A stretch of DNA of 64,000 bases from Chryseobacterium sp. LJ668 (GTDB lineage: Bacteria; Bacteroidota; Bacteroidia; Flavobacteriales; Weeksellaceae), in assembly GCF_019613955.1 (NCBI RefSeq), contig NZ_CP080443.1, forward strand, positions 186,001-250,000. Direction: 5' to 3'. A program made the translations under genes and the position numbers. The notes beneath the pieces are model-generated. The model did no database searches and was not told where the DNA came from. It saw only the letters and a list, made by a program, of their open reading frames with translations. Positions 2,093 to 59,230 of the stretch are shown piece after piece; positions within the stretch are counted from its first letter, which is position 1; every line of letters begins with the position of its first letter.

Positions 2093-2818
2093 CTATCTCA
2101 ACTTTCTTTTAAAAAAATAGTATCGATATAAAATCTTATCATACCAAATCGTAAAAAGTAGGGCTCCCGATGCAAATAGAAGTACTTTTATATAAAAGAT
2201 TTGATAGAGCCATCCTCCTATCACACATCCACAAAAAAAGCAAAGTATGATCGAAAGCTTCAGAAAAATATTTTTTTTAAGTTGCTGATATTTTAGTTCT
2301 TCTTTAATGAAAAATATTTGAGAAAACTCTATCCCTAAATCCGTAAATAACCCTGTAAGATGTGTTGTCCTTACAACAGACTGCGAAACTCTGGTTACTA
2401 AAGAGTTTTGGATTCCCATTGCAAAAAGGAGTATGAATGCAACCATGTTTGGTGTCAGCTGAAGGTTTACTTGCTTGAAACCAGAAAGACCTATCAAAGA
2501 AATAAGCAAAATTTCGATTAATAGGGGAATCAGGTGCGGACGAATCTTTTTACGTTTTGATAAAAATTCAATAATAAAACTAGACGTAAAAGATCCTAAG
2601 AGAAAACAGAGAATGAAAAGTAAATAAACAAAAGCTGTTCGATATCTATTCAATAGTATTTCCTCAGAAAAAAAAGCAAAATGCCCAGTGACATTTGTCG
2701 TAAGAACATTTACTGACAACACTCCGGTAATATTAACAATACCTGCAACAAAAGAAAGAGCTGAGGCTAGTTTAAGATTGTGAAAATAAGTTCTGCTTTT
2801 ACCTCTGTGATGAAACAT
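2093..2818 (-). CDS. YoaK/DUF1275 family membrane protein
   Basis: A 241-aa hydrophobic protein with about six membrane segments. The family signature appears near the N-terminus (FVAGIVNITGVLSVNVLTTN followed by VTGHFAFF) and in the middle (MGIQNSLVTRVSQSVVRTTHLTG). DUF1275 proteins are inner-membrane proteins of unknown function with a weak link to transport. An upstream TTG at 2854 would add 12 residues, but I chose the ATG at 2818. The gene is monocistronic and convergent with the glycosyltransferase. The 3' end is rich in Lys/Arg, as expected for a cytoplasmic tail. Confidence 0.8.
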   Translation of the reverse strand: MFHHRGKSRTYFHNLKLASALSFVAGIVNITGVLSVNVLTTNVTGHFAFFSEEILLNRYRTAFVYLLFILCFLLGSFTSSFIIEFLSKRKKIRPHLIPLLIEILLISLIGLSGFKQVNLQLTPNMVAFILLFAMGIQNSLVTRVSQSVVRTTHLTGLFTDLGIEFSQIFFIKEELKYQQLKKNIFLKLSIILCFFCGCVIGGWLYQIFYIKVLLFASGALLFTIWYDKILYRYYFFKRKLR

Positions 2819-3115
2819 CCTGTTAGGTTTAATCAATAAATTTATAGAACGCAATCAAATGAAGGTTCAAATTCCTCATTAAATTCATTCACTTACAATA
2901 GTATCGAAAATTATCCGTTTTCCTTTACTATTTGTGATAAGATTGAAATGAAAATTAAAACCAGTAAAAAACCTAATCTTAATGTAAATTGTTGGACATG
3001 GTTTTATAAAAAGACAATGATAACTAAGAGGTAATCCAATCCTAACTGAAATGTTTGCTAAAAAGCTTAAAATGCATCTGAAAAGACTAAACACATAAAG
3101 CTGACAATTTAAAAA

Positions 3116-4354
3116 CTATATGGTTATTACTTCCTTTCTATAATAGCCCATGCTCAAGTTAGATCTTATCTTATTAAATACAAGGAGAGTTCTCTTTACA
3201 TCCTCTAAAGTGTGAATAGCTGTGGGAATCAATCGTAACATAATTATTCCTTTCGGAACCACAGGATACATTACCAGAGAGCAGAATATTGCATGATTTT
3301 CACGTAAATCACTGACCAAGGCAGCAGCTTCATCTATAGATCCGTCAAGATATACAGGAGTTACCGGAGAATTGGTAGTACCTATGTCAAATCCTGCATC
3401 TTTCAATCCACTCTGAAGATTATTTGCAATAACCCATAGCTTTTCTCTAATTTCAGGTTTGGTGCGCATTAATTCTAAACGTTTTAAAGCACCAAATACC
3501 ATTGGCATTGGCAATGATTTAGCAAATATCTGAGAACGCATGTTATATTTCAGGAATAGAATAGCTTCTTTCGTACTGGCGATAAAAGCACCAATACCAG
3601 CAAATGCTTTAGCAAATGTCCCAAAATAAAAGTCAATACCATCCTGAACATTTTGCTCTTCTCCAGTTCCTGCGCCACTTTTACCAAGACATCCAATACC
3701 ATGAGCATCATCTACCAAAAGAGAAAAATTAAACTTGCCTTTTAAGGCGACAATTTCTTTTAGTTTTCCCTGGTCGCCTCGCATACCGAAAACGCCTTCG
3801 GTGATGACCAATATTGCTCCTTTTGTTTCTTTTATTATTTCCTTTGCACGCTCTAACTGTTTTTCACAATCTTTAATATCATTATGCTTGAAAACAAATC
3901 GTTTTCCGAGGTGAAGGCGTATTCCATCGATTATACAAGCATGCGATTCTGCATCATAAATGATCACATCTCTTCGATCTACCAGACAGTCGATTAAAGA
4001 TACCATTCCCTGATAACCATAATTTAATAAAAATGCATCTTCTTTTTGAACATAATCTGCAATCTTCTCCTCAAACTCTTCATGCAAGGTAGTATTTCCG
4101 GTCATCATACGAGCTCCCATTGGATAAGCAAGACCATACAAACGAACTCCTTCATTATCGGCTTCTCTGACTTCGGGATGGTTGGCCAATCCTAGATAAT
4201 TATTAAGACTCCATACTAATTTTTTCTTTCTATTAAAAAACATATTATTGCTGATCTGACCTTCAAGCCTGGGATACGCATAATATCCATGGGCATAATG
4301 AGCATGATCACCCAGTGGACCGAGACGTGTTTTTATTTTATCAATTATATTCAT
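3116..4354 (-). CDS. Alpha-oxoamine synthase family PLP enzyme (SPT/cysteate acyl-ACP transferase-like)
   Basis: A 412-aa fold-type I PLP enzyme. The internal-aldimine lysine is K249 in FGTFAKAFAG, and the PLP-ring motif is in LLVDDAHGIGCLG. The N-terminus (GPLGDHAHYAHGYYAYPRLEG, then LNNYLGLANHPEVREAD) matches the flavobacterial group that includes serine palmitoyltransferase and the cysteate acyl-ACP transferase of sulfonolipid synthesis. These enzymes condense an amino acid with an acyl thioester and release CO2. It is the last gene of a minus-strand block that also holds a methyltransferase and GcvH/GcvT-like genes. The amino-acid substrate cannot be read from the sequence. Confidence 0.82.
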   Translation of the reverse strand: MNIIDKIKTRLGPLGDHAHYAHGYYAYPRLEGQISNNMFFNRKKKLVWSLNNYLGLANHPEVREADNEGVRLYGLAYPMGARMMTGNTTLHEEFEEKIADYVQKEDAFLLNYGYQGMVSLIDCLVDRRDVIIYDAESHACIIDGIRLHLGKRFVFKHNDIKDCEKQLERAKEIIKETKGAILVITEGVFGMRGDQGKLKEIVALKGKFNFSLLVDDAHGIGCLGKSGAGTGEEQNVQDGIDFYFGTFAKAFAGIGAFIASTKEAILFLKYNMRSQIFAKSLPMPMVFGALKRLELMRTKPEIREKLWVIANNLQSGLKDAGFDIGTTNSPVTPVYLDGSIDEAAALVSDLRENHAIFCSLVMYPVVPKGIIMLRLIPTAIHTLEDVKRTLLVFNKIRSNLSMGYYRKEVITI

Positions 4355-4430
4355 TTTTTTATGTTGTTTTCGATATTTTTTTATTCTGGATTTATATAGA
4401 AGAATTAATGAGGTTCGTTATAAATTACTT

Positions 4431-5027
4431 TTAAATCACCTTTTTCCAAAAATTCAGTAGTCCATCGTACGCGGTATTTTCTAAATCAAAACTTTTGGGA
4501 ATCTCATCCCATTTACTCCAATATGTTACCAAACGTGTCCCTACGGGCGTTTCATCAAGCTGATTTCTGACATACTCTGAGTACTCATCATATAATTCTC
4601 TGTTTTTTTGTACTTCATCATCAATGGAGCATGTATGATCAATATTTTCGTAAAATGAATTAAAAAAATAAAATGCATCATAATCGGAAAAGGATATTTC
4701 CTTAATATTGGAATGAATAAAATTCACATTGTCAATATTATATTTGTCTGCAATTTTTTTTGAGATTTTTATTAGAGATTGTCTCTGCTCAACACCACAA
4801 AACCTTCCTGATGTCGAAGCAGCTCCTACCAAACAAAATTTACCGGCACCAGCACCTATGTCCAACACCTTACTATTTGAAGTTTCTGCTAAATAATGAG
4901 CTGCCATCTTTGCAACGGCAACTGGTGTCCAATGACGTTCTGCCAGTTCTTTTATACGAGGAGGATACAGCGAATTAAATTCGCTGTCTTTGACATCAAT
5001 ATTTAATTGTATATGTTTAAAAATCAT
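4431..5027 (-). CDS. Class I SAM-dependent methyltransferase
   Basis: A 198-aa Rossmann-fold methyltransferase. Motif I is VLDIGAGAGKFCLVGA near residue 55, the acidic end of strand 2 is GVEQRQSL, and the motif IV-like segment is YDAFYFFNSFYE. The start codon overlaps the stop of the upstream GcvH-like gene (ATGA-type overlap at 5024-5027), which indicates translational coupling and a shared pathway. The C-terminal half has a short insertion with few family landmarks, so the substrate is unknown. A small metabolite or an aminoketone made by the neighbouring oxoamine synthase would fit, but this is inference. Confidence 0.75.
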   Translation of the reverse strand: MIFKHIQLNIDVKDSEFNSLYPPRIKELAERHWTPVAVAKMAAHYLAETSNSKVLDIGAGAGKFCLVGAASTSGRFCGVEQRQSLIKISKKIADKYNIDNVNFIHSNIKEISFSDYDAFYFFNSFYENIDHTCSIDDEVQKNRELYDEYSEYVRNQLDETPVGTRLVTYWSKWDEIPKSFDLENTAYDGLLNFWKKVI

Positions 5028-5395
5028 AGTATTAATTTTAAATATTCTTCATGGGTTAATAATTCTTGTGTATAAATTTTAGCTGAAATACTCACTAACC
5101 AAAAATTATATGGATCTAGATTGACCTGTGATGGATGAGTATTTAAAAAAGTATTTAATGTTGTGATTTCGAATTCACAAGGCGCAACTAAAGAGAATGT
5201 TGCATTAGTTCCGTAAATCACTCCCCATGAAGCTGATTCCAACAATCTTTTTTCGTCGACATTCAATTCGATCAAGTCAATTTCTCCTATTTCTTTTTGA
5301 GCAAAATCAGTGATACCAATACAAAAATCACACAGCCCAATTTTCCTTAACCACAAATGGTTTTTAGTATAGTAGAGATTCTTAGGAATAATCAT
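5024..5395 (-). CDS. GcvH-like protein without lipoyl lysine
   Basis: A 123-aa protein with the glycine-cleavage H-protein fold: the N-terminal phrase is MIIPKNLYYTKNHLWLRKIG, then GITDFAQKEIGEIDLIEL, then a C-terminal DPYNFWLVSISAK. The lipoyl loop, normally ESVK followed by SD-x2-P, reads GVIYGTNATFSLVAP. No lysine is present, and the modified position is N64. It therefore cannot be lipoylated in the usual way. It overlaps the methyltransferase start and lies 120 bp after the GcvT-like stop. A structural, regulatory or decoy role is possible. It is more diverged than the second GcvH-like gene at 6260. Confidence 0.8.
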   Translation of the reverse strand: MIIPKNLYYTKNHLWLRKIGLCDFCIGITDFAQKEIGEIDLIELNVDEKRLLESASWGVIYGTNATFSLVAPCEFEITTLNTFLNTHPSQVNLDPYNFWLVSISAKIYTQELLTHEEYLKLIL

Positions 5396-5515
5396 ATTTC
5401 ATTTGATAAAGTTTAGTTTACTTTGGTTGATAACACCACATAGTGTATTTCTGATCTTATGCGAATTTTATTATAAATCTCAATTCTGCTGATCATAAAA
5501 AAGCATCAACAGTAT

Positions 5516-6247
5516 TTATTTCCATAAAGAAAAAAATCCCATTTCCAAACGAAGTGTATCTCTTGCCGCTAAACCGACAGGAACAATATGGTCGTCTTTT
5601 CCTGCTTTTAAAATGGCATCCCAAACATGTTCAGCATATTTATTTTCTACAAATATTTCAAACCCTCTTGCTCCTAGATAACCAGATGATGAGATCATCA
5701 CTTTGGAAATACATGCTAATTCACCAATTTTGAATTTTGTGCAGTCAATGCCTTCCAAATAGATATCTGTCAGTTTCTGAAGAGTGTGCAAAGCTTTTGG
5801 ACCTTGTACAATCATTAAAGTCATTGTATCCGTAACATTTGTTACTTCTGCATTTGGAATAGTATGTAAAAGAATCCAATCCATAACTTTCCGGATTTTT
5901 GAAGCATTAACCACCAAAAGATATCCCTTTTCACCAATACTATAAACCATCAAATCATCTATAATACCTTTGCTTTTGGACATGCAACTATAGTGTAATG
6001 TTCCGGCAGTAAGTTGTGGGGACTTATTCAAAGAAATCATTTGAACCAAGTCAAAAGCATCTTTTCCATGAATCAAAATCTTACCCATGTGTGATGCATC
6101 CAAAATACCAACACCTTTTTTTGTTGCCTCATCTTCCTGCTGTATTTCTGTATATTGAAGAGGCATTTGATAACCGGCAAATTCTATCATTTTTCCACCG
6201 AGGATGTGATGTATTGTATTAAGTGCCGTTTTCTTTATTTTTACCAT
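5516..6247 (-). CDS. GcvT-like protein, C-terminally truncated
   Basis: A 243-aa aminomethyltransferase homologue, whereas the family is usually ~360 aa. The N-terminal folate-binding region is well kept (MIEFAGYQMPLQYTE, GILDASHMGKILIHG, SSGYLGARGFEIFVE). The protein ends at RDTLRLEMGFFSLWK, where normal GcvT continues with LYGxD and a C-terminal barrel. The catalytic Asp of the N-S-A-x-x-x-KD motif is replaced: the segment reads NASKIRKVMDWI, with Val at the Asp position. No recognisable C-terminal remnant follows in the 120 bp downstream. It is probably unable to do normal aminomethyl transfer. Confidence 0.82.
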   Translation of the reverse strand: MVKIKKTALNTIHHILGGKMIEFAGYQMPLQYTEIQQEDEATKKGVGILDASHMGKILIHGKDAFDLVQMISLNKSPQLTAGTLHYSCMSKSKGIIDDLMVYSIGEKGYLLVVNASKIRKVMDWILLHTIPNAEVTNVTDTMTLMIVQGPKALHTLQKLTDIYLEGIDCTKFKIGELACISKVMISSSGYLGARGFEIFVENKYAEHVWDAILKAGKDDHIVPVGLAARDTLRLEMGFFSLWK

Positions 6248-6259
6248 CAGCAGACCGTC

Positions 6260-6661
6260 TTATAAACTTATTAAAACTGAATAGGAGTTTGATCGCAGCA
6301 ACCACTCTACATCGAAAAGATTATTCATTTTTATTTTGGCAATCCAACCCTCACCGTACGGATCGGAATTTAATAATTGAGGATTGAAAGCTAATTTTGG
6401 ATTCATCTCAATAATTTCACCGGCAATAGGCATAATAAGATCCGAGATTTTATTCACGGCCTCAATAGTTCCAAATATTTGTTCTTGTTTTATATTCTTT
6501 CCTAAAGTTTTAACTTTTACATAGATAATTCCTCCAAGTTCTTTCTGGGCAAAATCCGTGATTCCGACATATGCGGTATTACCTACAATTCTGATCCACT
6601 CATGATCTTCTGTATATAAGAGGTCTTTCGGAATTATCGTATCAACACTGTTTTTTTTCAT
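6260..6661 (-). CDS. GcvH-like protein with displaced lipoyl lysine
   Basis: A 133-aa glycine-cleavage H-protein homologue. It keeps the N-terminal LLYTEDHEWIRIVGNTAYVG, then GITDFAQKELGGIIYV, and the C-terminal NSDPYGEGWIAKIK. At the lipoyl site the canonical E-S-V-K is E-A-V-N (N70), and a lysine follows one residue later (K71). The register relative to the ISDLIMP turn is therefore off by one. The ATG at 6661 fits the family N-terminus; longer in-frame starts upstream add hydrophobic residues not seen in GcvH. The gene lies 12 bp before the GcvT-like gene, so the two are likely co-transcribed. No gcvP is present. Confidence 0.82.
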   Translation of the reverse strand: MKKNSVDTIIPKDLLYTEDHEWIRIVGNTAYVGITDFAQKELGGIIYVKVKTLGKNIKQEQIFGTIEAVNKISDLIMPIAGEIIEMNPKLAFNPQLLNSDPYGEGWIAKIKMNNLFDVEWLLRSNSYSVLISL

Positions 6662-6730
6662 AAAAAATAACACACTCATTATTGTTCTTTTGATATTTAA
6701 CCATATCATTTTTTTGTTTATTCAGTTTTT

Positions 6731-8338
6731 TCAACCAATCTTCGTAACATTTGTGTCAATCACAGGACCTCCCTGCATTATTTGTTCGTTGGCAAATGAC
6801 TCAAAGGATGTAAAGTTCAATCTAAATTGGGCTGCAAGATTAAGGGCTGTTTCATCATATGCAGATTTATCATCCCATGTATTTTTGGGATTTAATATTT
6901 CAGAAGGTACCCCGTCACATTCTATGGGTATCTTCAATCCAAATACAGCATCACGCACAAAATCTATATCTTCTAATTTTTTTTCTAATACTGCCGCAAT
7001 CATAGCTCTGGTGTAGGAAAGTTTAATACGTTCTCCTGTTCCGTAAGATCCTCCAGACCATCCTGTATTAATCAACCAGACTTTTACTTTATTTTCTATC
7101 AATTTTTTTCCTAACAATTCAGCATAGGTTGTTGGATGCAATGGTAAAAAGGGTTTTCCAAAACATGCAGAAAAAGTGGTCTGGGGTTCTGTAATTCCTG
7201 CTTCGGTTCCTGCTACCTTTGCAGTATATCCAGAAATAAAATGATACATCGCTTGACCAACAGTCAATTTTGAAATGGGAGGAAGTACACCAAAAGCATC
7301 ACAGGTCAAAAAGAAAATATTTTCCGGTACTCCACCAACAGATGGATGTACTGCATTGTCAATAAAATCAATAGGATAAGCTGCTCTTGTATTTTCAGTT
7401 ACAGAAATATTATCGTAATCAACGATATCTGTTCCGTCAACAAAACGCACATTTTCAAGCAAAGTTCCAAAACGGATAGCAGAAAAAATTTGGGGTTCTC
7501 TCTCTTCGCTCAGATTAACACATTTCGCATAACAGCCGCCTTCAAAATTAAAGACATTCTGATCGTCCCATCCATGTTCATCATCGCCAATTAGTTTTCT
7601 GGACGGATCTGCGGAAAGTGTAGTTTTACCTGTTCCTGAAAGTCCAAAAAATACAGATGTATCTCCTTGTACACCAATATTAGCCGAACAATGCATCGAG
7701 AGCACATTCTTTTCATAAGGAAGTATGTAATTTAAAACCGTAAAAATTCCTTTTTTGATTTCTCCGGTGTAGGCACTTCCTCCAATAAGAATGATCTTTT
7801 TTGAAAAATTAATGACTGTGAAATTATGCTGGCGTGTTTTGTCTACTTCCGGAACAGCTCTAAATTCAGGAGCTACTAATATAAGCCATTCGTGGTGAAA
7901 GGTTTCTAGTTCTTTGTCAGTCGGTCTTAAAAATAGATTATTAACAAATAAACTCTGCCATGGTTTTTCGGTAACAACCCTGATGTTTAATTGATACTCA
8001 GATTTTGCGCAGGCATAGGCATCTTTCACATAAATATCTCTGGCAGAAAGATGGGCAGCAACACTGCTGTATAATCTGTCGAAATCTTCGGGAAGAAACG
8101 GATGGTTAACCTCCCCCCACCAAATGGAATCTGTGGTATTCTCATCCTTCACAATATATTTATCCTTAGGTGAGCGTCCCGTAAATTCACCGGTATCACA
8201 AGCCAATGCTCCTGAACGGGTGATGACACCCTGGCTTTTCTTTAGCGTCTGGGCTATTAGTTGAGACACTGATAAATTCCAGTAGACTTCCTTTGTATTG
8301 TTAATCCCCAGATCTTTTAACTGCTCTAAATATTCCAT
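6731..8338 (-). CDS. pckA: ATP-dependent phosphoenolpyruvate carboxykinase
   Basis: A 535-aa cytosolic enzyme that converts oxaloacetate and ATP to PEP, CO2 and ADP. The P-loop is GLSGTGKTTLSADP near residue 234, followed by the metal-binding GDDEHGWDDQNVFNFEGGCY. The oxaloacetate-binding TGRSPKDKYIV and the C-terminal NTGWSGGSYGTGERIKL are also present. Length is normal for the ATP-dependent class. It is the first gene of the minus-strand block that continues into the GcvH/GcvT-like genes, 69 bp before the first of them. It diverges from a Crp/Fnr gene, and the 22-bp palindrome between them suggests oxygen or redox control of this gluconeogenic or anaplerotic step. Confidence 0.97.
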   Translation of the reverse strand: MEYLEQLKDLGINNTKEVYWNLSVSQLIAQTLKKSQGVITRSGALACDTGEFTGRSPKDKYIVKDENTTDSIWWGEVNHPFLPEDFDRLYSSVAAHLSARDIYVKDAYACAKSEYQLNIRVVTEKPWQSLFVNNLFLRPTDKELETFHHEWLILVAPEFRAVPEVDKTRQHNFTVINFSKKIILIGGSAYTGEIKKGIFTVLNYILPYEKNVLSMHCSANIGVQGDTSVFFGLSGTGKTTLSADPSRKLIGDDEHGWDDQNVFNFEGGCYAKCVNLSEEREPQIFSAIRFGTLLENVRFVDGTDIVDYDNISVTENTRAAYPIDFIDNAVHPSVGGVPENIFFLTCDAFGVLPPISKLTVGQAMYHFISGYTAKVAGTEAGITEPQTTFSACFGKPFLPLHPTTYAELLGKKLIENKVKVWLINTGWSGGSYGTGERIKLSYTRAMIAAVLEKKLEDIDFVRDAVFGLKIPIECDGVPSEILNPKNTWDDKSAYDETALNLAAQFRLNFTSFESFANEQIMQGGPVIDTNVTKIG

Positions 8339-8410: not shown

Positions 8411-8432
8411 AAATTTGATTTAAATCAAATTT
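8411..8432. promoter_or_regulatory. 22-bp perfect palindrome with FNR-type core
   Basis: The intergenic space between pckA and the divergent Crp/Fnr gene contains a perfect 22-bp palindrome. Its core, TTGAT-N4-ATCAA, equals the classical FNR box. The centre is 48 bp before the regulator start and 83 bp before pckA. It is probably the binding site of the adjacent regulator, giving autoregulation and control of the pckA block. Confidence 0.75.
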
Positions 8433-8469: not shown

Positions 8470-9156
8470 ATGATCTCGAAATTCATTTTTAACAACCAAT
8501 ATCTATTTGAAGAGCTTCCGGAGGGTGATAAAGACATGTTTACTCAAGTAATGCATCAAAAAAATTACCGAAAAGACGAAGCAATATTTACTGATGGTAC
8601 AATGCCCAATGGCGTTTTCTATTTGAAATCAGGTAAAGTAAAAAAATATAAGGTTGATAATGACGGTAGAGAACAGATCATTTATATCTACAATGCAGGA
8701 GAGTTTTTCGGATATTCGGCCATCTTAAGTGAAGAGTCTTATGGCGATACTACACAAACTCTTGAAAACTCTGTGATTTCTTTTATTTCAAAGGATGATT
8801 TCCTTTCTTTACTTACTAAATCCGCCGTATTTTCTAGGTTACTTTTAAAATGCCTGAGTCACGAGTTTAGTGTTATGGCAAATTTAATGACCGTTCTCTC
8901 TCAAAGAACTGTTCGGGAACGAGTAGCCTTAAGTCTGCTTATTTTGCATGATAAGTACAAAATAAACAGCTCAGATGATGCTACTGTGTTTATTACATTG
9001 TCCCGTTCCGATTTAGCCAATATGGCTGGTACCGCAAGTGAAACGTTGGCACGTATACTTCATGGTTTTAAACAGGAAAAACTAATTATGATGGAAGGAC
9101 GTAAAATACAATTATTAGATTTTAAATTGTTAACTCAAATAGCAAATCTCATGTAA
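8470..9156 (+). CDS. Crp/Fnr family transcriptional regulator
   Basis: A 228-aa protein. Residues ~10-125 form a cyclic-nucleotide-binding-like beta-roll (GVFYLKSGKVKKYKV, GEFFGYSAILSEESYG). Residues ~150-228 form a winged helix with the recognition helix in SRSDLANMAGTASETLARIL. The E-x3-R pair of this helix matches FNR/CRP contacts to a TGA half-site, in agreement with the TTGAT boxes next door. There is no N-terminal Cys cluster, so no Fe-S centre is likely; a different effector must be sensed. It is transcribed divergently from pckA and convergently with the YeeE/YedE cluster. Confidence 0.88.
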   Translation: MISKFIFNNQYLFEELPEGDKDMFTQVMHQKNYRKDEAIFTDGTMPNGVFYLKSGKVKKYKVDNDGREQIIYIYNAGEFFGYSAILSEESYGDTTQTLENSVISFISKDDFLSLLTKSAVFSRLLLKCLSHEFSVMANLMTVLSQRTVRERVALSLLILHDKYKINSSDDATVFITLSRSDLANMAGTASETLARILHGFKQEKLIMMEGRKIQLLDFKLLTQIANLM

Positions 9157-9186: not shown

Positions 9187-9615
9187 TTAATGCGGTAATT
9201 TTTCCCTTACATATCCATACACCCAAGTTCCAAAAATTGCACTCACCAAAGTGATGATTACTGCAAATGCACCTGTCCCGATTTGTGCAAAAAGAGGTCC
9301 CGGACATGCTCCTGTGATTGCCCAGCCAAAGCCAAAAATCAAACCACCATAAATTTGCCCTTTATTGAATTTTTTAGGAGCTATTGAAATGGTTTCTCCA
9401 TCAATGGTTTTTATCCTGAATTTTTTAATGAGTAAAACAGAAATCATTCCGATGACAACTGCGCTTCCGATAACGCCATACATATGAAAGGACTGCAGCC
9501 TGAACATCTCCTGAATTCTGAACCAACTGATAATTTCAGCTTTTACAAAAACAATTCCGAATAAAACACCCACGATGAGGAATTTTAAATTATCATACCA
9601 TTTTTCTTTTTTCAT
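9187..9615 (-). CDS. YeeE/YedE family protein (DUF6691-type half)
   Basis: A 142-aa membrane protein with about four helices. The signature Cys lies in FGWAITGACPGPLFAQIG, as in YeeE/YedE thiosulfate or sulfur transporters. It is about half the length of a full YeeE, and with the next gene it makes a split two-subunit transporter, as is common in Bacteroidetes. It lies 12 bp after the other half and is likely in one operon with the MBL-rhodanese gene. It probably moves a sulfur species across the inner membrane. Confidence 0.85.
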   Translation of the reverse strand: MKKEKWYDNLKFLIVGVLFGIVFVKAEIISWFRIQEMFRLQSFHMYGVIGSAVVIGMISVLLIKKFRIKTIDGETISIAPKKFNKGQIYGGLIFGFGWAITGACPGPLFAQIGTGAFAVIITLVSAIFGTWVYGYVREKLPH

Positions 9616-57856: not shown

Positions 57857-59230
57857 TTACATTTTGTGACCGTTAGATTTAACAACAGAATTTTTATTGC
57901 CTTCACCTAGTTTCTTCGGATTCTTAAAAGAAAACTCAAACTTCCCAATGTTCTTATCGAAACTGATGTAGCCTTGGTATTTTTTGCCTTTGCTGTCGGT
58001 GAGTCCGTTGATGTAGGAGGTCTCCCCTGCTTTGAGTTTTTCGATCTGCCATTTATGGAGAGGTTTGCCTCTGAAGGTGGCGGGTACTTCTGCTTTGATG
58101 GTATTTTGGAGGTTTTTATGTTGTAGCTGCAGTTGTAAGCCTTTGATATTTGAGTTGAATAGAAATTCCACATATCTTTTTTCTGCATTGAACTGAACCA
58201 TAGCATTGAACAATGTGCCTCTTTTGGAGATCATGTTTTCAATGAATAAAGGTTTGCCTTCTTTGAGGGTTTTCTTTTGTTCGTCGTTCAAGGTGACTCC
58301 GCTTAGGACTAATGGAAGCCTTATATGTTCTGCTCTTAATGCGATGAGTTCATTGGTCAGTCGGTCTCTGCTGATAACGGATGGGGTCAGTTCATCGGTC
58401 ATTGGGTTGATCAGGTTGACGATCCTGCCCATGTTCCCGGTTTCAAGAAGATTGTGTCGGTCTTCTTGGGTGAACTCATGACCAAATAGCTTTGTGGTAA
58501 AATCAGGTTCTTTTCTGACGGGATGAATGCGGACCTCAAGATATCCGACATCGTTGAGTCGTAAGGAAAGTCTGACATCCATGGCGGTTTTGATGGTTTC
58601 CTGATTAAATGTAATGGGAATCAAGGTGGGTGTTTTATATCCTTTAAGTAAGGGTTCTAATGCGTTGAGATATTTCAGTTTCTCTTGATTGAGATTGAGC
58701 TTGCTCATAATATTCCAGTCAATCTGTTCCGGGAGATAGCGGTACTGCTGTTCTTTAATGTGAGGTTGGATACTTTTACTTTGTTGGAACTGGGTGAGTT
58801 TATTTTGACGGTCTAATTGTGCTTGGACTGCATCAATGGAAACCGCATAGTCTTTGAGTTGGTCGATTTCTTTTACGGATGCTTGGTCGATGTAGTTTTG
58901 AAGGTCTTGGGCTATTTCTTTGGCTTCGTATTCGGTGATTTTGAAGAAAGTGAAATCTTCCGGGTTTTTTAACTGGTGGTAGAAGTCTGAATAGAATTGG
59001 GTGAAAGCATCTTCTTTTTGGTTGATTTTTAAGATGGGATTCGAGTATTCTTGGTTAGGTGCTGTGTGATTGATCGTTCCGTCTGGATTGATGTTTTGGA
59101 CGAGGCCGATGGTGTTGCTGTTGTTGTGGAGAACCAATAAGGTGTCCGAGGATGGTGTGTTTTGCGTTTGGTTGTGGTTTTGGTTTTGATGATGATCTTT
59201 TTTTGGATCCTGATTTTTATCTGTTTCCAT
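57857..59230 (-). CDS. DUF4099/DUF3945 domain protein of conjugative elements
   Basis: A 457-aa protein. An Asn/Gln/His-rich N-terminus is followed by a helical linker, a DUF4099-like part (EQIDWNIMSKLNLNQEKLKY) and a C-terminal DUF3945 repeat (LSGVTLNDEQKKTLKEGKPL, FRGKPLHKWQIEKLKAGETS). Family knowledge places these genes next to topoisomerase genes on Bacteroidetes ICEs. No topB is seen next to it here. Its presence 20 kb beyond the mob genes suggests that the conjugative element extends to this point, or that a second element is present. Confidence 0.85.
   Translation of the reverse strand: METDKNQDPKKDHHQNQNHNQTQNTPSSDTLLVLHNNSNTIGLVQNINPDGTINHTAPNQEYSNPILKINQKEDAFTQFYSDFYHQLKNPEDFTFFKITEYEAKEIAQDLQNYIDQASVKEIDQLKDYAVSIDAVQAQLDRQNKLTQFQQSKSIQPHIKEQQYRYLPEQIDWNIMSKLNLNQEKLKYLNALEPLLKGYKTPTLIPITFNQETIKTAMDVRLSLRLNDVGYLEVRIHPVRKEPDFTTKLFGHEFTQEDRHNLLETGNMGRIVNLINPMTDELTPSVISRDRLTNELIALRAEHIRLPLVLSGVTLNDEQKKTLKEGKPLFIENMISKRGTLFNAMVQFNAEKRYVEFLFNSNIKGLQLQLQHKNLQNTIKAEVPATFRGKPLHKWQIEKLKAGETSYINGLTDSKGKKYQGYISFDKNIGKFEFSFKNPKKLGEGNKNSVVKSNGHKM

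Follow-up and report, generated by a model that had tools for sequence, protein, structure and literature searches.

A patchily conserved gene block behind an FNR/DNR-type box combines PEP carboxykinase, glycine cleavage paralogues and a methyltransferase in Chryseobacterium

The window analyzed here, a stretch of 64,000 nucleotides from Chryseobacterium sp. LJ668, carries a block of genes that is apparently undescribed and seems to be conserved in Bacteroidota. A Crp/Fnr-type regulator is divergent from pckA, which is followed by gcvH2 (HA), gcvT2, a pseudo-gcvH (HB) and a methyltransferase gene (MT); an oxoamine synthase gene (AOS2) completes the block in the window. From the sequences, we tentatively read it as a stress-regulated accessory operon concerned with C3/C1 metabolism, which also carries the HB-MT pair and sometimes a second sulfonolipid-type synthase. 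No description of the block was found in a literature search, only one part of which queried its gene content, and to that extent the initial annotation was right to call the system undescribed.

Conservation of the block and its promoter box

An ORF check placed six co-directional ORFs on the minus strand at 3116-8338 with a single start/stop overlap, an ATGA at 5024-5027, as initially annotated. The product of pckA (6731..8338, minus strand) is an ATP-dependent PEP carboxykinase that scores above the cut-off in both PF01293 (PEPCK_ATP, 730 bits) and TIGR00224 (736 bits), and the C. aahli copy is 95% identical.

The initial annotation would have been refuted by absence of the block from all other genomes, a check that it passes. 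We compared 29 MT loci on named Chryseobacterium contigs from 27 genomes, in which two strains are counted twice (one as L092 and L097, the other as L079 and L096). Because the loci were retrieved by two MT peptide patterns, blocks without MT or with variant MT letters were missed. The order pckA-HA-T-HB-MT is present in 13 of the 29 loci, some with a broken member, and also in a Flavobacterium genome, where the block pckA is shortened (186 aa). HB is absent or a remnant in 11/29 loci and pckA was not found in 12/29, including L092 and L097, which are short contigs beginning at HA. MT is split by frameshifts in L099 and L100 and shortened in L097. AOS2 occurs in five of the 29 loci, plus one remnant, and the divergent regulator adjoins the block in 18. 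Judged from this gene order, the block is patchy yet conserved in Chryseobacterium, and its recurrence exceeds chance. Putative same-contig pairs (22 MT-HB, 6 MT-AOS2 and 5 HB-AOS2, among the matches listed) suggest linkage; the pairing covered 120 MT, 94 of 120 HB (weaker matches were dropped) and 119 of 120 AOS rows (one had no contig). FH2 and C. elymi, the only intact pair to be compared, gave dN/dS values of 0.032/0.588 for T, 0.056/0.621 for HA, 0.056/0.491 for HB, 0.042/0.590 for MT and 0.031/0.836 for AOS2.

An FNR/DNR-type box (TTGAYTTWAATCAM) lies upstream of the first block gene in all 23 loci examined, a set that omits L092 and L097, whose contigs begin at HA, and the duplicates L069-L071. 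The background across the same loci was 0.09 matches per kb, the boxes themselves included. The window copy, TTGATTTAAATCAA (8415..8428, no strand assigned), begins 90 bp before pckA. Six of the seven MT-only Chryseobacterium loci have no box. A promoter scan was uninformative (23 matches found vs 25.1 expected in shuffles). The regulator (8470..9156, plus strand) belongs to the Crp/Fnr family. According to the accessible part of PMC1274295, DNR/FNR/FixK regulators share the consensus box TTGATnnnnATCAA; a box of this type precedes the block operon and binding is predicted, but the block regulator lacks the FNR cysteines. Its single cysteine is at position 128, and the four Fe-S ligands of FNR were not found. 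A 4Fe-4S FNR oxygen sensor is therefore ruled out, and low oxygen is just one possible signal, NO being another. The FNR-type box supports the Fnr-like switch of the initial annotation.

In the accessory operon that we propose, the regulator would control the genes through this one box in response to NO or low oxygen. On the signal, PckA might re-route C3/C1 metabolism; in relatives with intact copies, GcvH2 and GcvT2 would join in this re-routing with a GcvP encoded elsewhere. AOS2, where present, may add a second acyl condensation of the cysteate type to make sulfonolipid bases.

It is possible, if short of probable, that the block is a regulon and not a pathway, and that its genes have only a stress signal in common behind one FNR/DNR-type box. 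In that case, pckA and gcvH2/gcvT2 would be spare central-metabolism genes, HB-MT an independent modification pair and AOS2 an independent lipid gene. The independent loss of members fits this reading, as does retention of the box where HB is missing (L080, L081, L083 and L085). MT also stands beside a related regulator in three genomes that are distant but belong to the same class, and there GcvH and the other block genes are missing. The independent losses, the shortened Flavobacterium pckA, the lack of a box in most MT-only loci, an MT fold match that favors no particular substrate, and the occurrence of MT and regulator without GcvH elsewhere count against an accessory operon. However, two families share the order pckA-HA-T-HB-MT, and AOS2 is placed exclusively beside the block, which suggests a closer tie than a shared signal.

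Glycine cleavage paralogues and decay of the window copy

The block shares its H and T families with the glycine cleavage system. In relatives, GcvH2 has the lipoyl motif, and a GcvT2 (L089) matches the solved GcvT 1yx2 end to end (residues 4-365 against 5-365, E 4e-104). On the other hand, the block has no P gene and has an extra lysine-free H paralogue, and T in the window is without its C-terminal domain. A complete glycine cleavage operon was not found, as there is no gcvP in the block; this absence, already remarked in the initial annotation, was confirmed. The sole GDC-P gene of the genome lies outside the block at C1:2723341, and the same genome has a canonical gcvH at C1:798836 and a canonical gcvT at C1:12845.

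The window GcvT2 (5516..6247, minus strand; GCV_T, 212 bits) is a remnant of 243 aa with only the N-terminal folate-binding domain, covering 2-234 of the 255 positions of the GCV_T profile; no profile match to the C-terminal domain was obtained. C. aahli shares the truncation, and dN/dS between the two copies was 0.090/0.220. Among 19 T ORFs in the 29 loci, 16 measure 365-371 aa. The window HA (GcvH-A, the second GcvH; 6260..6709, minus strand; GCV_H, 125 bits) has lost its lipoyl lysine (EAVNKISD): the position is N in the window and K in the other 21 of the 22 HA sequences. The initial annotation counted the non-canonical GcvH and GcvT among the parts of the system and did not notice that the window copies of GcvT and GcvH-A are decayed. 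We rejected the idea that they are specialized forms because most relatives have ordinary full forms; as read from the alignments, the truncation and the lysine loss are decay. In this genome, the GcvT/GcvH2 part is probably no longer working, while the sequences of pckA, MT, AOS2 and the regulator still appear to be under constraint. Since the window copy is degraded, it is unsuitable as a model of the system.

Such decay raises the question of whether the whole block is a hitch-hiker, a set of chance neighbors near mobile DNA with no present function. A conjugative transposon (TraG, TraJ, TraK, TraM, TraN, MobB, MobC) adjoins the block in the window, synteny with C. aahli breaks at window position 9443, broken copies of several members occur in more than one species, and the AOS2 copy of genome G554 holds a TAG. 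Nevertheless, the low dN/dS of the intact pair and the conserved promoter box make this reading unlikely.

Other second GcvH genes of the family were considered as the same system and rejected, as seven of the eight regions fetched have another context. In L123-L129, GcvH has a metallophosphoesterase gene on one side and a transporter gene on the other, with an ArsR-type gene close by (Pfam names come from L123 only), and L130 differs.

The HB-MT pair

HB (5024..5395, minus strand; GCV_H, 56 bits) is an H-protein paralogue without the lipoyl lysine. In an alignment of 28 HB sequences, the lysine column is N in 26, H in two and K in none, whereas canonical GcvH has K in 28/28. The gene overlaps MT by the ATGA, and the same four-base overlap of HB stop and MT start recurs in 17 of the 18 Chryseobacterium loci with a full HB (the overlap in L095 is longer) and in both Flavobacterium loci.

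MT (4431..5027, minus strand; Methyltransf_31) is a class I SAM methyltransferase of 198 aa. Its best sequence match is RumA (E 5e-4), DOT1/aKMT and Trm11-type methyltransferases gave no sequence match at E 1 or better, and family-name matches in the profile search were weak. The predicted structure resembles protein and RNA methyltransferases, a fold match that singles out no substrate.

HB may be a non-acylated H-protein fold in a stoichiometric complex with MT. It would dock MT on a partner of the H-protein (GcvT, GcvP or a lipoate enzyme), and MT would then methylate the docked partner. A speculative and rather unlikely proposal is that the pair is a two-subunit methyltransferase in which a lipoyl-carrier protein without its lysine provides the docking, and that under an FNR/DNR-type signal it methylates GcvT, GcvP or some other enzyme that depends on lipoate. 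If true, HB-MT would be a post-translational switch of glycine/one-carbon metabolism, for which we know of no counterpart. The block itself has a clear promoter box and includes H-proteins that lack the lysine, form a family and are coupled to a methyltransferase. Use of a GcvH-type protein outside glycine cleavage has a parallel in LbpA of the sHdr sulfur-oxidation system (PMC6067878, in the part available), but LbpA binds lipoate and HB lacks the usual lysine.

The oxoamine synthase

AOS2 (3116..4354, minus strand; Aminotran_1_2) has an intact ORF in the window, is 60-61% identical to both solved CFAT/SulA enzymes and matches 7u7h (E 8e-171) and 28eh (E 5e-166). By these comparisons, it is closest to cysteate-C-fatty acyltransferase, of which it forms a sister clade, and is a second CFAT/SulA paralogue; the window genome already has one CFAT, beside a cysteate-synthase-like gene. 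As in the CFAT/SulA enzymes of capnine and sulfonolipid synthesis, the PLP lysine and the Lys281 equivalent (IFAKSLP) are kept, the latter as K in 122/122 alignment rows; Lys281 separates cysteate acyltransferases from SPT (PMC9304779, in the part available). Because the column comparison with CFATs of the genus had one CFAT sequence, only its Lys281 count is used; the motif comparison was redone in the tree step with eight further CFAT sequences. Two residues downstream of the PLP lysine, AOS2 has F where CFAT/SulA has M (intermediate rows also have F). In the tree (35 rows), it forms its own clade (97/94) outside that of the characterized enzymes (97/98), which it joins at 89/93; 7u7h and 28eh have long branches and their placement is less sure. 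Window AOS2 gave a dN/dS of 0.087/1.90 against FH2, with dS near saturation.

AOS2 is present in at least 7 of 173 Chryseobacterium genomes, always 1.0-1.2 kb past gcvT2 (7/7), among the matches listed; extra AOS matches in G534 and G617 fall outside these and are not counted. A single new pathway to an aminoketone lipid or a signal, whose GcvH/GcvT parts would serve the oxoamine synthase by carrying or transferring groups, would suit this exclusive placement and the apparent constraint, but it is very unlikely, since AOS2 is absent from most mapped block copies, HB lacks the carrier lysine and AOS2 retains the SulA-type active-site lysine. What holds of the initially suggested aminoketone-type lipid is that cysteate acyltransferase, the nearest family, makes AOS2 a relative of aminoketone-lipid enzymes.

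AOS2 marks a second clade of cysteate-acyltransferase-like enzymes besides the CFAT known from Chryseobacterium gleum and other sulfonolipid producers (PMC11211663, in the part available). The block offers a concrete means of asking if one-carbon metabolism and lipids of the sulfonolipid type respond to an FNR/DNR-type signal in Bacteroidota. A gene for a DUF1275 membrane protein (2093..2854, minus strand; PF06912) is a recurrent neighbor of the block, found at varying positions in the fetched flanks of 17 of the 29 loci.

Gene content and distribution of the block

The six co-directional open reading frames described in the initial annotation at 3116-8338 are all present on the minus strand, as is their one start/stop overlap (a single ATGA, 5024-5027). 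Their Pfam and NCBIfam names are PEP carboxykinase (pckA), GcvH (HA), folate-binding domain of GcvT (T), a weaker GcvH (HB), class I methyltransferase (MT) and alpha-oxoamine synthase (AOS2). HB overlaps MT and has lost the lipoyl lysine. A Crp/Fnr-family gene lies upstream in divergent orientation, and the canonical gcvH, gcvT and gcvP of this Chryseobacterium genome are sited elsewhere. The closest named locus is that of C. aahli (MT, 93%). Searches of the openly accessible literature yielded no account of the block.

With MT as the anchor, 29 Chryseobacterium loci on named contigs were mapped. HA is present in 21 of these, T in 19, the regulator in 18, pckA and the membrane protein DUF1275 in 17 each, full HB in 18 (plus two remnants) and AOS2 in five (plus one remnant). 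The order pckA-HA-T-HB-MT is conserved in 13/29 loci, certain of them with a broken member; MT stands without any other block gene searched in 5/29 and with an HB remnant in 2/29. T at at least 79% identity occurs in 25 of 173 genus genomes, the truncated copy of the window not counted. HB scores above 200 bits in five of 395 order genomes, every one Chryseobacterium; at E 1e-22 it matches 36/395, those beyond the top five scoring below 90 bits, and at E 1e-27 two of 165 Flavobacterium genomes. MT is matched at E 1e-30 in 10 of 395 phylum genomes. One Flavobacterium genome carries DUF1275, the regulator, a shortened pckA, a 71-aa ORF, HA, T, HB and MT; a different one has the regulator, HB and MT. 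In two distantly related Bacteroidota genomes, MT is followed by a SulP-type permease (L118, 7850-9499; L119, 8389-10065), as called by Pfam on the L118 copy, to which the L119 protein start is nearly identical in letters.

Promoter box and regulator

The intergenic region of the window contains TTGATTTAAATCAA at 8415-8428; the loose box pattern has two matches across the whole window against 0.95 expected. At all 23 block loci examined, including four without HB, TTGAYTTWAATCAM stands ahead of the first block gene; it also stands ahead of the second MT in the Flavobacterium genome with the more complete block. The loose pattern is matched in one of seven MT-only Chryseobacterium loci and one of the five remaining loci outside the genus, and a palindrome of the TTGA or CTGA type occurs at each of the three distant loci where a regulator sits next to MT. 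Boxes of this type are recognised by FNR and DNR (PMC1274295). The single cysteine of the regulator rules it out as a 4Fe-4S sensor. The second MT copy of that Flavobacterium genome (L200, 12197-12793) lies 137 bp downstream of a perfect TTGATTTAAATCAA box of its own.

The block may be a stress-regulated accessory operon, in which the signal of the regulator would act on the block, HB would serve as a docking subunit for MT, MT would methylate a target, and AOS2, sometimes added, would supply a product of its own. As a whole this mechanism is tentative, and a loose stress regulon is rated equally likely.

Local decay and a probable mobile element nearby

T is 365-371 aa long in 16 of the 19 ORFs from the mapped Chryseobacterium loci, and that of locus L089 can be aligned to solved GcvT over its full length. 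The copies of the window and C. aahli both end at GFFSLWK, with the C-terminal domain absent, and their TGYTGE stretch reads SGYLGA and SGYTGA, respectively; broken copies also occur in C. defluvii and C. sediminis. The lipoyl lysine of HA is retained in 21 of 22 sequences, with N at that site in the window alone. In one pairwise comparison between the window and C. aahli, dN/dS was 0.026/0.437 for pckA, 0.030/0.528 for MT, 0.019/0.295 for the regulator, 0.099/0.818 for HA, 0.091/0.305 for HB and 0.090/0.220 for T. On these values, constraint on T, and to a lesser degree on HB, looks relaxed. Between the relative FH2 and C. elymi, the sole intact pair compared, dN/dS indicated constraint on all block genes.

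Synteny with C. aahli breaks off at 9443. A 166-bp segment from the C. aahli flank matches 58016-58180, and together these suggest that the block adjoins an element that may be as long as about 49 kb. This interval (approximately 9443-58180), the bulk of which is absent from the corresponding C. aahli site, probably holds a conjugative transposon with Tra and Mob genes (TraN, TraM, TraK, TraJ, TraG, MobB and MobC at about 19.4-35.2 kb), SSB, RadC and TIGR03299. Because C. aahli retains part of the sulfur-transport gene spanning the break, insertion in the window and deletion in C. aahli are both possible. In C. defluvii and C. pennae the block likewise adjoins an SSB gene of this type, with a PRTRC gene also in the former. 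This setting may explain the patchy distribution of the block. Adjacent to the transposon is a sulfur module made up of a Sulf_transp protein, an MBL-rhodanese protein, TauE and a second Crp-like ORF.

AOS2 and other GcvH settings

Among solved proteins, AOS2 is closest to the Alistipes finegoldii sulfonolipid enzyme SulA (7u7h) and to a cysteate-C-fatty acyltransferase (CFAT; 28eh). It retains the lysine that sets SulA apart from serine palmitoyltransferase (PMC9304779). In a 35-row tree, AOS2 forms its own clade (97/94) adjoining that of the characterised enzymes, the placement of 7u7h and 28eh being less sure because both are long branches. An ordinary CFAT-type gene (60%) is found at C1:3012973 of the source genome, adjoining a cysteate-synthase-like gene (543 bits against a cut-off of 600). 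CFAT-type matches at E 1e-100 occur in 171/173 genus genomes and AOS2 (at least 83%) in 7/173, in all seven on the strand of T and 1.0-1.2 kb past it; one of the seven (G554) contains TAG. Protein starts judged by eye at the five named AOS2 loci and at the locus with the remnant revealed no other lipid gene beside AOS2. The single pathway to an aminoketone-type lipid or signal proposed in the initial annotation is improbable.

The canonical CFAT and cysteate-synthase-like genes are adjoined by a large B12-binding radical SAM-type protein (L121, 2523-4718) that reaches no family cut-off.

In seven family genomes (L123-L129), GcvH is located between a metallophosphoesterase and an SBF-family, Acr3-like transporter, near an ArsR-type gene; the Pfam names of these neighbors derive from L123. 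Since arsenic binds lipoyl dithiols, a GcvH in an operon of this type merits a look.
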